Positions 31,982-36,311 of a stretch of 47,473 nucleotides of DNA are shown one piece after another; positions within the stretch are counted from its first letter, which is position 1; every line of letters starts with the position of its first letter. The DNA comes from Acidimicrobiales bacterium (lineage in GTDB: Bacteria; Actinomycetota; Acidimicrobiia; Acidimicrobiales; AC-9). A program made the position numbers and the translations under genes. The stretch lies in assembly GCA_036491125.1 (NCBI GenBank), contig DASXCO010000159.1, forward strand, positions 1 through 47,473, given 5' to 3'. Under the pieces are notes generated by a model. That model did no database searches. It was not told where the DNA came from and saw only the letters and a list, made by a program, of their open reading frames with translations.

Positions 31982-32794
31982 ATGCGAGTCGGCGTTCTCG
32001 GAGCTGGGGGGCGCATGGGCTCTACGGTGTGCCAGGCGGTCGCCGACGATCCCGACCTCGAGCTGGTCGCGGCCGTCGACCCCCGTCTGGCCGGCATCGA
32101 CATCTACCAGGTGACGGGGGTCAAGGGCTCAGACGTCCAGGTGGAGGGCGACGCCGAGGCGCTCCTCAGGGCCGAGACGCAGGTGGCGGTTGACTTCACC
32201 GAGGTGGGTGTGGCCCGCGAGAACCTCCGGTGGTGCGCCGCCAACGGGGTGCACGCGGTCGTCGGGACGACGGGGTTCACCGGAGACGACATGGCCGAGC
32301 TGGAACGTCTGTTCTCGGGCTCTTCCAACTGCGTCCTGTCGGCCAACTTCGCCATCGGCGCTGCCCTGATGACGCGCTTCGCCGAGCTGGCCTCTCCGTA
32401 CGTCGACACTGCCGAGATCGTCGAGCTCCACCACGACGCCAAGCTGGACGCGCCGTCCGGCACGTCGCTGCGCATCGCCGAGGGGATGTCCAGGTCGCGC
32501 CGGGCGTCGGGCGCTGGCGGCTGGGGCGAGGACCCGACCAGGACCGAGGTGGTGAAGGGTGCCCGGGGCGCGGTCGGTCCCGGCGGGGTGCGCGTGCACT
32601 CGGTCCGGCTGCGCGGGCTCGTCGCCCACCACGAGGTCATCCTGGGGGCCGCGGGCCAGACGCTCACGATCCGTCATGACTCCTACGACCGCACGTCGTT
32701 CATGCCGGGCGTGATGCTGGCCGTCAAGTCGGTGGCTGACCGGCCCGGCCTGACCCTCGGGCTCGATTCACTGCTCGGCCTCGGAGAGTCCTGA
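31982..32794 (+). CDS. dapB: 4-hydroxy-tetrahydrodipicolinate reductase
   Basis: DapB reduces the dihydrodipicolinate precursor on the way to lysine and diaminopimelate. The 270 residues begin with the dinucleotide-binding motif VGVLGAGGRMGS, followed by VDFTEV, VVGTTGF and the catalytic block ELHHDAKLDAPSGTS with His and Lys in place. A GRTHS-like NAD(P) loop is replaced by KGARGAVGPGGVRVHSVRL, common in actinobacteria. The partner dapA lies about 2.6 kb downstream beyond an inserted three-gene block. Confidence 0.97.
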   Translation: MRVGVLGAGGRMGSTVCQAVADDPDLELVAAVDPRLAGIDIYQVTGVKGSDVQVEGDAEALLRAETQVAVDFTEVGVARENLRWCAANGVHAVVGTTGFTGDDMAELERLFSGSSNCVLSANFAIGAALMTRFAELASPYVDTAEIVELHHDAKLDAPSGTSLRIAEGMSRSRRASGAGGWGEDPTRTEVVKGARGAVGPGGVRVHSVRLRGLVAHHEVILGAAGQTLTIRHDSYDRTSFMPGVMLAVKSVADRPGLTLGLDSLLGLGES

Positions 32795-32864: not shown

Positions 32865-32870
32865 TAGGGT
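32865..32870 (+). promoter_or_regulatory. -10 box (TAGGGT) for the first tetR gene
   Basis: TAGGGT ends 5 bases before the GTG at 32876. No Shine-Dalgarno fits between them, so a leaderless message is likely. Confidence 0.5.
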
Positions 32871-32875
32871 GGGTC

Positions 32876-33487
32876 GTGGCCGGCGATGCCCGTCTGCGGA
32901 TCCTGGAGGCGACCTACACCTGCGTCGCCCGGTACGGGCTGGCCAAGACGACCGTTGAGGACGCGGCCCGGGCCTCGGGCATGGCGCGGGCCACGATCTA
33001 CCGCTACTTCCCCGGCGGGCGGGACCAGCTGGTGGCCGAGGTGATCGCGTGGGAGGCGGCCCGGTTCTTCGACCGGTTGGCGACCGCCGTCGGCGAGACC
33101 GAGGGCCTTGACGAGCTGCTCGAGGAGGCGCTGTTCTTCGCCCACCGGGCCGTCGAGGAGCACGAGGTCCTGCAGAAGATCCTTCAGACCGAGCCCGACC
33201 GCCTCCTGCCCCAGCTGACGGTGGAGAGCACCCGGATCCTCGCCTACATCCGGGCCTTCCTGATGCCGCACATGGCGGAGCAGTCCCGGGCGGCCGGGCT
33301 CGACCCGGAGGAGGCGGCCGACTTCGTGGCCCGCATGCTGCTGTCGTTCACCGGGTCACCCGGGCAGTGGGACCTTTCGGATCGGGCCCAGGTCAGGGAG
33401 CTGGTCCGCACCGAGGTGCTCGCTGCCCTCCACCCCCTGCCGGCACCGGGGGTGGGCGTGACGGATGACACAATGAGACCATCTTGA
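32876..33487 (+). CDS. TetR family regulator 1
   Basis: This is a 203-residue TetR-type repressor. The N-terminal helix-turn-helix reads K-T-T-V-E-D-A-A-R-A-S-G-M-A-R-A-T-I-Y-R-Y-F (about 22-43). The C-terminal ligand domain is helical and shows no known ligand pattern. It is clearly paralogous to the next gene: A-K-T-T, D-x-A-R, G-x-x-R-A-T, Y-R and F-P-G-G are shared in register. The last codons before its TGA include a TGAGAC element that belongs to the operator region ahead of the second regulator. Confidence 0.88.
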   Translation: MAGDARLRILEATYTCVARYGLAKTTVEDAARASGMARATIYRYFPGGRDQLVAEVIAWEAARFFDRLATAVGETEGLDELLEEALFFAHRAVEEHEVLQKILQTEPDRLLPQLTVESTRILAYIRAFLMPHMAEQSRAAGLDPEEAADFVARMLLSFTGSPGQWDLSDRAQVRELVRTEVLAALHPLPAPGVGVTDDTMRPS

Positions 33488-33519
33488 CGATGAGACGAAG
33501 TATGCGAGAATGTCTCATT
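33472..33519 (+). promoter_or_regulatory. Operator/promoter between the two tetR genes
   Basis: AATGAGAC (33472-33479) and GTCTCATT (33512-33519) are perfect inverted copies. A second TGAGAC lies at 33491-33496, forming TGAGAC-N15-GTCTCA with the right arm. A TTGACG (33484-33489) and GAATGT (33508-33513), 18 bases apart, resemble -35 and -10 boxes, with transcription starting at or next to the GTG at 33521. A repressor bound to the inverted repeat would cover the promoter. Confidence 0.65.
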
Positions 33520-33520
33520 A

Positions 33521-34180
33521 GTGACGGTGACCGGCATGCTCCCGGAAGCGACGGCAGAGGCGGTGACTGACGGCACGCCCGAACCGAGCACCCAGGAGCT
33601 GCGGGTGGTCGACGCCACCCTGCGCTGCATCGCCCGCTGGGGTGTGGCCAAGACGACGCTCGACGACGTGGCCCGCGAGGCGGGATGGAGCCGGGCAACC
33701 GTCTATCGGCTCTTCCCGGGGGGCAAGGACGCCGTGCTCGAGACCGTGGTCGCGGTCGAGCTCGGGCGGCTCTTCGGTGCCTTGGACGACCGTCTGACAG
33801 CGGCGCGCGACCTCGAGGACCTACTTGTCGCCGGTATGAGCGAGGCCGGCGCCCAAGTCACCCGCCATCCGGCGCTGCGGTTCCTCGTCACCCACGAGCC
33901 CGAGGTGATCCTGCCCCAGATCTCCTTCGCCCGGGCTGAGCGGGTCCTGGCCAGGGCGGCGTCGTTCGCCTCGCCCTATCTGGCCCGGTGGCTCAGTCTC
34001 GAGGAGGCCAACCGGGTGGTCGAGTGGATGACCCGGATCGTGATCTCCTACGCCGCCTCCCCGAGCGCAGGGGTCGACATCGCCGACCCCGCCTCGGTAC
34101 GGCGGCTCGTCCGTAGTTTCGTGCTACCCGGCATCCGGGCGTCGGTCGACGCCCAGGTGCGGGCCCGACCCGTCAGCTGA
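33521..34180 (+). CDS. TetR family regulator 2
   Basis: This is a 219-residue TetR-type repressor with helix-turn-helix K-T-T-L-D-D-V-A-R-E-A-G-W-S-R-A-T-V-Y-R-L-F and then PGGKD. It closely resembles the preceding regulator in this domain, which suggests tandem duplication. An N-terminal extension of about 27 residues precedes the fold. The GTG start has no ribosome site and lies 7 bases after a -10-like box embedded in an inverted repeat, so self-repression is likely. The di-iron ferritin-like gene follows 16 bases later and is probably in the same transcript. Confidence 0.88.
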   Translation: MTVTGMLPEATAEAVTDGTPEPSTQELRVVDATLRCIARWGVAKTTLDDVAREAGWSRATVYRLFPGGKDAVLETVVAVELGRLFGALDDRLTAARDLEDLLVAGMSEAGAQVTRHPALRFLVTHEPEVILPQISFARAERVLARAASFASPYLARWLSLEEANRVVEWMTRIVISYAASPSAGVDIADPASVRRLVRSFVLPGIRASVDAQVRARPVS

Positions 34181-34196
34181 CCCAGGAGGAACCTAC

Positions 34197-35315
34197 ATGG
34201 CCACGAACGAGGAGCTCATCGGCCGCAGCGACGTCGACGACATCGAGGCGATCCTGTCGGTCACCAACACCGACGTCGACGAAGCGGTCCACGCCGTGAC
34301 CGACAACGCCGAGGCCATCTTCACCTGGGACTACGAGAAGGGTGCCCGTCCCAAGCTGTCCCGTCTCTACGAGAAGGCCAAGGGCTCGATGTGGAACGGC
34401 GAGACCGACCTGCCGTGGGACACCGAGGTGGACCAGGAGTCCGTGGTCGTCGCCAACGCCGCCGCGACAGGCGGCTTCGGCCAGGGCATGGACGTCTCCG
34501 GCACACCGTTCGCCAGCTGGACGGACGCGGAGTGGGTGCAGCTCGGCATCGAGAGCCAGAACTGGACGCTGTCGCAGTTCCTGCACGGCGAGCAGGGGGC
34601 CCTCGTGTGCACGGCCAAGATCGTGGAGTCGGTGCCCTGGATCGACGCCAAGTACTACGCGTCCACCCAGGTCATGGACGAGGCTCGCCACGTCGAGGTC
34701 TTCTCCAAGTACCTCGACACGAAGCTGTCGGGCCACTACCCGATCAACGCCCACCTGCGGATGCTGCTCGACGACATCATCGCCGACAGCCGCTGGGACA
34801 TGACCTACCTCGGCATGCAGATCATGGTCGAGGGGTTGGCGCTGGCGGCGTTCGGCTTCATCCACAGCTTCACCACCGAGCCCCTCCTCAAGCAGCTGCT
34901 CAAGTACGTGATGGCCGACGAGGCCCGTCACGTGGCGTTCGGTGTCCTGAGCCTGCAGGAGTACTACGAGCAGCTGAGCACGGCGGAGATCCGCGAGCGG
35001 CAGGAGTTCGCCTTCGAAGCTGCGGTGCGCATGCGCGACCGCTTCCTGCAGCAGGAGGTGTGGGACCGCATGGGTGTGCCGGTCAAGGAGATCGTCCCCC
35101 TCGTCATGCAGGCGCCCGACCGGACGGCCTTCCAGTCCATGCTGTTCGCCAAGATCGTCCCCAACTGCAAGAAGCTTGGTCTGCTCGACGCGGCCGACGG
35201 GTGGCTGCGCGAGCGTTTCACCGACCTCGGCGTCATCGCCTTCGAGAGCTGGGCGGACACTGGTGAGGAGTACGAGGCGTTCGCCTTGGCCCAGGGGGAC
35301 AAGCGCTCCGCCTAA
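34197..35315 (+). CDS. Di-iron ferritin-like protein (putative oxidase/oxygenase)
   Basis: The 372-residue soluble protein carries a full duplicated di-iron motif with equal spacing: Glu132 then D161-E-A-R-H165, and Glu212 then D241-E-A-R-H245 (E-x29-E-x2-H twice). This is the metal site of ferritin-like di-iron carboxylate enzymes such as ribonucleotide reductase R2, acyl-ACP desaturases and AurF-type N-oxygenases. Length and an aromatic-rich core favour an oxidase or oxygenase over iron storage. The substrate is unknown. The ribosome site AGGAGG with 7-base spacing is among the best in the window, so high expression when derepressed is likely. Two TetR genes precede it. Confidence 0.85.
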   Translation: MATNEELIGRSDVDDIEAILSVTNTDVDEAVHAVTDNAEAIFTWDYEKGARPKLSRLYEKAKGSMWNGETDLPWDTEVDQESVVVANAAATGGFGQGMDVSGTPFASWTDAEWVQLGIESQNWTLSQFLHGEQGALVCTAKIVESVPWIDAKYYASTQVMDEARHVEVFSKYLDTKLSGHYPINAHLRMLLDDIIADSRWDMTYLGMQIMVEGLALAAFGFIHSFTTEPLLKQLLKYVMADEARHVAFGVLSLQEYYEQLSTAEIRERQEFAFEAAVRMRDRFLQQEVWDRMGVPVKEIVPLVMQAPDRTAFQSMLFAKIVPNCKKLGLLDAADGWLRERFTDLGVIAFESWADTGEEYEAFALAQGDKRSA

Positions 35316-35348: not shown

Positions 35349-35381
35349 GCGGAGGGGAGGCTCGCGGGAGGAGGTGTGCAG

Positions 35382-36311
35382 ATGGCCCGTTCAGGCCGTT
35401 TCGGCGCCATGATGACGGCCATGGTGACACCGTTCGACGACCGCTTCGCGCTGGACCTGGACGCAGCCGCGGCGCTTGCCCGCTGGTTGGTCGACCATGG
35501 CAGCGACGCACTCGTGGTGGCCGGCACGACCGGCGAGGGCTCGGTGCTCTCCGACGACGAGAAGGCGGAGCTGTGGCGCGTCGTCGCCGAGGCGGTGACG
35601 GTACCGGTCGTCGCCGGCGCGGGCACCAACGACACCCGGCACTCCGTCGAGCTGACGAAGCTGGCCGAGGTGGCGGGGGCGGCCGGCATCCTGGCGGTGA
35701 CGCCTTACTACAACCGGCCCTCACAGGCCGGGCTGGCGGCCCACTTCCGGGCCGTCGCCAGTGCCACCTCGCTCCCGGTGCTCGTGTACGACATCCCGGT
35801 CCGCACCGGTCGCAAGGTGGCCCACGACACGCTGCTCGGGTTAGCTCGCGAGGTGTCGAACGTGGTGGGGGTGAAGGACTCGGTGGGCGATGTCGCCGGG
35901 TCAGCCAGGCTCCTGGCCGAGGCGCCTCCCGACTTCGACTTCTACAGCGGGGAGGATCCGCTCAACCTCGCCCTGCTCGCCCTGGGCGCGTCGGGCGTGG
36001 TCAGCGTGTGCAGCCACTGGGCGGGCCCGGAGATCGCCGAGATGATCTCCGCCGTTGGTGCGGGCGACCTCGAACGGGCTCGAGCCCTCAACACCGACCT
36101 GCTGACGTCCTACGCGTTCTGCAGCACGGAGGATGCCCCGAACCCTCTGCCGGCAAAGGCCATCATGCGCCGCCTGGGGTTGCCCGTGGGTCAGTGTCGC
36201 CTTCCCATGGGACCGGCGTCCGCGTCGCTCGACGAGCGGGCAGCCGACGTGCTCGCTGGCCTGCGCGCCCAGCCGCGGGCCGGCCGTGCGGCTCGTGAGC
36301 CCGTTGGCTGA
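35382..36311 (+). CDS. dapA: 4-hydroxy-tetrahydrodipicolinate synthase
   Basis: DapA condenses pyruvate with aspartate semialdehyde. ATG 35382 lies 7 bases after GGGAGGAGG and gives 309 residues. The TIM-barrel landmarks are AMVTPFD, VVAGTTGEGSVLSDDE, AGTNDTRHSVELT, TPYYNRPSQAGLAAHF (catalytic Tyr) and the Schiff-base Lys in VGVKDSVGD. The C-terminal tail is Arg/Ala-rich. The stop overlaps rnj by 17 bases. Together with dapB it supplies diaminopimelate for the cell wall and lysine. Confidence 0.96.
   Translation: MARSGRFGAMMTAMVTPFDDRFALDLDAAAALARWLVDHGSDALVVAGTTGEGSVLSDDEKAELWRVVAEAVTVPVVAGAGTNDTRHSVELTKLAEVAGAAGILAVTPYYNRPSQAGLAAHFRAVASATSLPVLVYDIPVRTGRKVAHDTLLGLAREVSNVVGVKDSVGDVAGSARLLAEAPPDFDFYSGEDPLNLALLALGASGVVSVCSHWAGPEIAEMISAVGAGDLERARALNTDLLTSYAFCSTEDAPNPLPAKAIMRRLGLPVGQCRLPMGPASASLDERAADVLAGLRAQPRAGRAAREPVG

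Follow-up and report, generated by a model that had tools for sequence, protein, structure and literature searches.

Several described systems resemble parts of the locus considered here. The acuR-acuI-dddL operon of Rhodobacter sphaeroides is leaderless and begins with a TetR gene, and its ligand-relieved repression has been shown; its operator, TAATAGAC-N6-GTCTATTA, is an inverted repeat that overlaps the promoter, and the downstream enzyme genes are better translated (PMC3017554). The repressors AlkX and Rv3249c (M. tuberculosis) are tied to alkane hydroxylase genes, i.e. alkB-rubA-rubB (PMC9430723; 5ydp, 5d1w). Among dimetal enzymes, the R2-like ligand-binding oxidases (R2lox) include the alkane monooxygenase GkR2loxI (PMC10867098, PMC6060897) and are defined by a Val/Tyr pair (Val72/Tyr162) that forms an ether cross-link (PMC6060897). 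A seventh metal-site His is characteristic of the N-oxygenases (H225/E229 in Dob3; PMC13061610).

We analysed a window of 47,473 nucleotides (i.e. the whole stretch of DNA) from an Acidimicrobiales genome. Two TetR genes and an open reading frame of 372 residues were called on its + strand where the initial annotation had placed them. The features of this locus are as follows.

31982-32794, + strand: dapB, the upstream neighbour and context outside the unit; named by the initial annotation, with a homologue upstream in 26 of 65 loci (loci with enough DNA only)
32876-33487, + strand: tetR1, TetR family, 203 aa, GTG start; from the ORF call, a TetR_N match and its place in the T1 clade of the tree
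33458-33471, + strand: second dyad GTGAC-ggat-GACAC, upstream of the tetR2 promoter; candidate accessory operator
33474-33479, + strand: extra TGAGAC half-site, 17 bp upstream of the operator left arm; a similar half-site occurs in locus L005
33484-33489, + strand: predicted -35 TTGACG of the tetR2 promoter, which includes the tetR1 stop codon; TTGAC is among the most conserved columns
33491-33517, + strand: predicted operator TGAGAC-N15-GTCTCA, overlapping the -10 GAATGT (33508-33513); position-specific conservation in 58 loci
33521-34180, + strand: tetR2, TetR family, 219 aa, predicted leaderless; GTG 3 nt past the operator
34184-34189, + strand: Shine-Dalgarno AGGAGG of the dimetal gene, from sequence, 7 nt before the ATG
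34197-35315, + strand: R2-like Glu4His2 dimetal-carboxylate protein, 372 aa; from the ORF call, ligand conservation and the AlphaFold2 (AF2) fold
35376-36311, + strand: dapA, the downstream neighbour and context outside the unit; named by the initial annotation, conserved

Like the acuR operon, this unit has a TetR gene first, an inverted repeat overlapping the promoter and, downstream, an enzyme gene that is probably the better translated, with repression and the leaderless start being only predicted here; it differs from the acuR operon, which has one TetR, in its enzyme, arm sequence and spacing. The AlkX and Rv3249c systems likewise place a TetR beside a dimetal oxygenase gene and provide the best fold match to TetR2, but AlkB is an integral membrane non-heme diiron enzyme and the identity of these TetRs to TetR2 is 22-23%. 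R2lox proteins share with the window enzyme the R2 fold, the Glu4His2 site, a Glu at the first ligand position and a Z of about 22, whereas A135 and M207 replace the Val72/Tyr162 pair in the window enzyme and identity is about 15-18%. The diiron oxygenases AurF, CmlI and Dob3 (PF11583; PMC13061610) have the six ligands in common with it and belong to its best Pfam family, but the window protein is without the seventh His and falls just under the family cut-off. The R2 subunit of class I ribonucleotide reductase (PF00268) is alike in fold and ligand pattern, while the window enzyme has no radical Tyr.

Our preferred reading, to which we assign a probability of about two in three, is that the locus encodes a substrate-inducible dimetal oxygenase or oxidase for a hydrophobic compound, which would be repressed by an autoregulated TetR2, with TetR1 probably sharing the site. 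From an earlier proposal of an inducible oxidative enzyme under two-step control, this keeps the inducible oxidative enzyme under TetR control as the best reading, with the two steps as a less probable addition. Comparison provides the gene order, the conservation and position of the operator, its single site per genome, the TetR duplication, the metal ligands and the predicted fold; we infer repression, the leaderless start, the ligand, the substrate class and the role of TetR1, and all regulatory statements rest on comparison. In this model, tetR2 and the dimetal gene would form one repressed operon. Bound to TGAGAC-N15-GTCTCA, which overlaps both promoter elements (-35 and -10) of the predicted leaderless tetR2 message, TetR2 would keep RNA polymerase from transcribing both its own gene and the enzyme gene behind it. 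The repressor would leave the operator on binding a small hydrophobic molecule, which is probably a substrate or product of the enzyme. The enzyme, whose gene has a strong ribosome site to itself, would oxidise this compound by activating O2 at an Fe/Fe or Mn/Fe centre within the R2-like fold. TetR1, an old duplicate with its own promoter, probably recognises the same half-site pattern or one close by, and may act as a basal repressor or second sensor.

The gene order is conserved well beyond the window. A scan of species genomes recovered 80 homologous loci with 69-82% identity, nearly all labelled Acidimicrobiia or Actinomycetota. Where enough upstream DNA is available, the adjacent TetR (TetR2) is kept in 57 of 69 loci and both tetR1 and tetR2 in 44; downstream, dapA or rnj follows in 55 of the 62 loci with enough flanking DNA, and dapA lies within 2.2 kb in 49 of them. 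The initial annotation made its proposal depend on the TetR-TetR-dimetal triad recurring elsewhere, and these 44 loci show that it recurs class-wide. It had also described the three genes as interrupting a usual dapB-dapA-rnj-ftsK order, which we correct: dapB-tetR-tetR-dimetal-dapA-rnj is itself the usual order in Acidimicrobiia. Because the tetR-tetR-dimetal order is common across Acidimicrobiia loci, it is a class-level gene order, and a recent insertion between dapB and dapA is ruled out. By sequence comparison, tetR1-tetR2-dimetal is an old conserved unit of Acidimicrobiia. The enzyme family is present in 65 of the 148 Acidimicrobiia genomes sampled; other Actinomycetota contain enzyme homologues with about 40-52% identity and different neighbours.

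Some loci have additional features. In several class members, a protein of 213-228 aa is encoded between the dimetal gene and dapA (e.g. L024 5135-5818 and L073 5145-5783); its gene is absent from the window, and the protein has no Pfam match in the other genomes carrying it. The dimetal gene is duplicated in tandem in L005 (4001-6208) and L196 (from about 5077). The labels of some public metagenome-assembled records are doubtful: five records titled Bifidobacterium breve (L014, L020, L027, L029 and L047) have an Acidimicrobiia-type locus sequence, and their titles look wrong.

The inverted repeat between the two TetR genes, previously proposed as an operator, reads ATGAGAC-N15-GTCTCAT at 33490-33518 with 0 mismatches. 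Only three copies of ATGAGAC or its complement exist in the 47 kb window, all of them inside 46 bp at the operator. The palindrome alone would be no more than suggestive; it is more than chance because it is conserved in other genomes, and this comparative evidence supports a real operator. Alignment of 58 non-redundant loci gives a conserved block, TTGAC-RR-TGAGAC-A...G-Y-C-TA-NYGTCTCA, in which the -35 stands directly before the left arm and the -10 runs into the right arm. The tetR2 start codon (GTG or ATG) falls 2-4 nt past the right arm in 55 of 64 loci, and a leaderless message is therefore predicted. There is a strong preference for the N15 spacing, with 50 sites; N7 comes next with 15 and is enriched because of an inner half-site.

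The operator accompanies an adjacent TetR in 62 of 71 loci, compared with 1 of 13 loci without one (Fisher p 3e-8; shuffled background 1.7%), although these counts and the Fisher value overstate the independent evidence because the loci share ancestry. The site is degenerate or spaced differently in nine TetR-bearing loci; in L061, no TetR separates the operator from the enzyme gene, which follows it directly. Within the class, the promoter-plus-operator pattern is found in 43 of 148 genomes, once in each, against 3 hits for the reversed-pattern control. The exact hits are upstream of the enzyme, with the sole exception of genome G122, which is without the enzyme; its site is at the end of a contig, and the 28 N-terminal residues of a TetR2-like protein come after it. 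As no genome in the class sample has more than one predicted TetR2 site, whatever induces TetR2 should be a guide to the substrate of the enzyme, and an uncharacterised family thereby gains a testable handle.

Two other sets of candidate sites were rejected. One-mismatch hits in the enzyme-less genomes G049 and G011 have no homologue near and are probably due to chance. A search for a wider regulon in the window's own genome found 61 relaxed matches on each strand, compared with 34 for the reversed control, with the promoter context only at the window site; one further exact operator match in this genome (contig C194, L139) has a centre rich in G+C and is without a promoter of this kind.

Of 59 non-redundant loci, 11 have the dyad GTGAC-N4-GNCAC upstream of the tetR2 promoter, usually at a distance of 15 or 26 nt from the -35, compared with a mean of 0.06 in shuffles. 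This significance is overstated, since the pattern had first been spotted by eye in the very sequences that were then counted. This second dyad is a candidate element that may serve TetR1 or another regulator.

Both regulators are clear TetR-family members, with TetR_N matches of 1.5e-10 for TetR1 and 4.8e-10 for TetR2 (41.1 and 39.5 bits, respectively, against a Pfam cut-off of 24); TetR1 also matches TetR_C_35 below the cut-off (1.8e-4). They share 37% identity over 180 residues (E 2e-30). In a tree of 60 TetRs, TetR1, TetR2 and the TetRs from outside the class form three groups (support of 88, 99 and 100, respectively), so the TetR1/TetR2 pair most likely descends from one old duplication. 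The tandem pair is a clean case of a repressor duplication that has been retained. A possible -10 (TAGGGT) lies at 32865-32870 before the GTG start of tetR1, and the tetR1 message is possibly leaderless. An upstream scan of 41 loci found no conserved operator before tetR1 and no enrichment of operator half-sites.

The recognition-helix core is RAT in both window TetRs and mostly identical across sister pairs. It is therefore plausible that both read the same or related sites, as had been suspected from the window alone. A special form of our main reading goes further and takes TetR1 and TetR2 to be partners in an obligate heterodimer, or else two sensors, on the 27-bp operator, so that control would respond to two inputs. 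We consider this unlikely: the sister genes stay together in 44 of 69 loci, mostly with the same core, and the operator, with its inner GTC-TA half-site and enriched N7 spacing, fits more than one dimer, but several lineages that keep tetR2 alone nearby (L010, L014 and L045) retain the operator unchanged, and genomes outside the class combine one adjacent TetR with an unchanged N15 spacing.

For TetR2 as the autoregulated repressor of our preferred reading, the AlphaFold2 model (pLDDT 92.3) predicts a helical C-terminal domain with the TetR fold. Of 1000 aligned PDB chains, 810 have a Z of at least 8, the best being AlkX (Z 14.8) and Rv3249c (14.7). QacR and FadR are tied with these two, so the AlkX/Rv3249c match is just a lead; fold matches of TetR and helical-bundle proteins say little about ligand or reaction.

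A variant of the operator occurs outside Acidimicrobiia. The pattern TTGAC-NN-TGTGAC-N15-GTCACA is present in 5 of 246 genomes sampled across the phylum (G185, G196, G207, G274 and G303), and each TGTGAC-N15-GTCACA site occupies the same promoter position at an enzyme-homologue locus. These five genomes share the architecture of the class, but with one adjacent TetR. The recognition helix of this TetR is SRQT in the four genomes where it was read, whereas that of the class TetR2 is RAT (SRAT), and the FPGGKD segment that follows it in the class TetR2 is one residue longer. Both arms carry the change from TGAGAC to TGTGAC symmetrically, as would be expected of a dimeric regulator. The operator/helix change is probably one event on the tree and therefore provides no independent statistical support. 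Natural TGAGAC and TGTGAC operators with differing recognition helices are nonetheless ready material for studying how TetR specificity changes. A broader synthesis, which we regard as rather doubtful, would be a new R2-like oxygenase family with a phylum-old single-site repressor module, in which the symmetric arm change goes with an Ala/Gln helix change and a one-residue insertion after the helix, and the duplicated TetRs provide two-input control.

The dimetal protein had been singled out for two equal E-x29-E-x2-H metal sites behind a good ribosome site, and both observations stand. The AGGAGG site lies immediately ahead of the gene, the metal-site spacing is exact (E132-x29-E162-x2-H165 and E212-x29-E242-x2-H245), and the six ligands, i.e. 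E132, E162, H165, E212, E242 and H245, are invariant in 45 homologues. Structure comparison, as the initial annotation had suggested, indicates an R2-like model (pLDDT 88.9) that matches R2 and R2lox at a Z of about 22 (with 7qbp: Z 22.1, 248 residues, rmsd 3.0). The positions of the R2lox Val/Tyr cross-link, placed by spacing from the shared ligands, correspond to invariant A135 and M207, and the enzyme scores 39.2 bits against the R2-like ligand-binding oxidase NCBIfam, below the cut-off of 194. Judged from the model and the alignments, the enzyme is an R2-like Glu4His2 protein without the signature residues of AurF N-oxygenases, R2lox or tyrosyl-radical R2. No dedicated reductase or transporter adjoins its gene in the window. 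Literature searches on the enzyme family with TetR or Acidimicrobiia yielded no characterised member.

An AurF-type N-oxygenase that produces nitro or N-oxy compounds is improbable. Each of the 45 homologues has AurF (PF11583) as its top family (E 0.01 or better, 3.7e-12 at best), but the window protein itself scores 29.5 bits against a cut-off of 29.6, and in place of the seventh His of the N-oxygenases (PMC13061610), four before the last Glu ligand, it has V238, conserved in at least 90%. A protein that handles iron or peroxide without catalysis, controlled by a stress-responsive TetR, also seems a poor fit: membership of the ferritin-like superfamily and the lack of partner genes alongside would agree with it, but the fold is R2-like over about 250 residues and a 35% homologue (L136) lies among AMP-ligase and acyl-carrier genes. 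Very improbable is a ribonucleotide reductase small subunit (R2), or a remnant of one, in a nucleotide-supply operon: R2 proteins are the closest folds and the enzyme is the sole PF00268 match in the genome, a weak one (7.4e-5; 22.7 bits, below the cut-off of 33.6), but the genome (96% complete) contains a B12-dependent (class II) reductase fragment (NF005122, 536 bits) and no detected class I reductase, the residue four after H165, which we take to be the R2 tyrosyl-radical position, is an invariant Phe (F169), although Phe is also present there in some R2 proteins, and neither the multiple copies per genome nor the TetRs beside paralogues agree with such a role.

For the oxygenase or oxidase that we prefer, the neighbours of paralogues give hints of hydrophobic or CoA-linked substrates, a link that is loose because these neighbours vary. 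They include genes for an RPE65-type carotenoid oxygenase (L187 4253-5593), an enoyl-CoA hydratase (L200 4803-5660), an AMP-ligase (L205 6081-7709) and a PF10118 hydrolase (L188 6839-7732), and in L188, L190, L193 and L205 a paralogue has a TetR of another subfamily next to it. The window genome itself has a second enzyme copy with 59% identity (G000 C33 6978-8030, L132), which is without the operator and lies upstream of a solute-binding protein gene. No operator precedes the paralogues in the 20 copies examined, except for the dap-locus copy of G110.

Other arrangements were seen in more distant genomes. The 35% homologue L136 (7944-9071) is on a Streptomyces plasmid, in the company of genes for AMP-binding, acyl carrier and acyl-CoA dehydrogenase proteins. 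In Actinomycetota with large genomes, the homologue and an AurF-family gene are transcribed divergently (L122 8098-9084 and L120 6473-7858).
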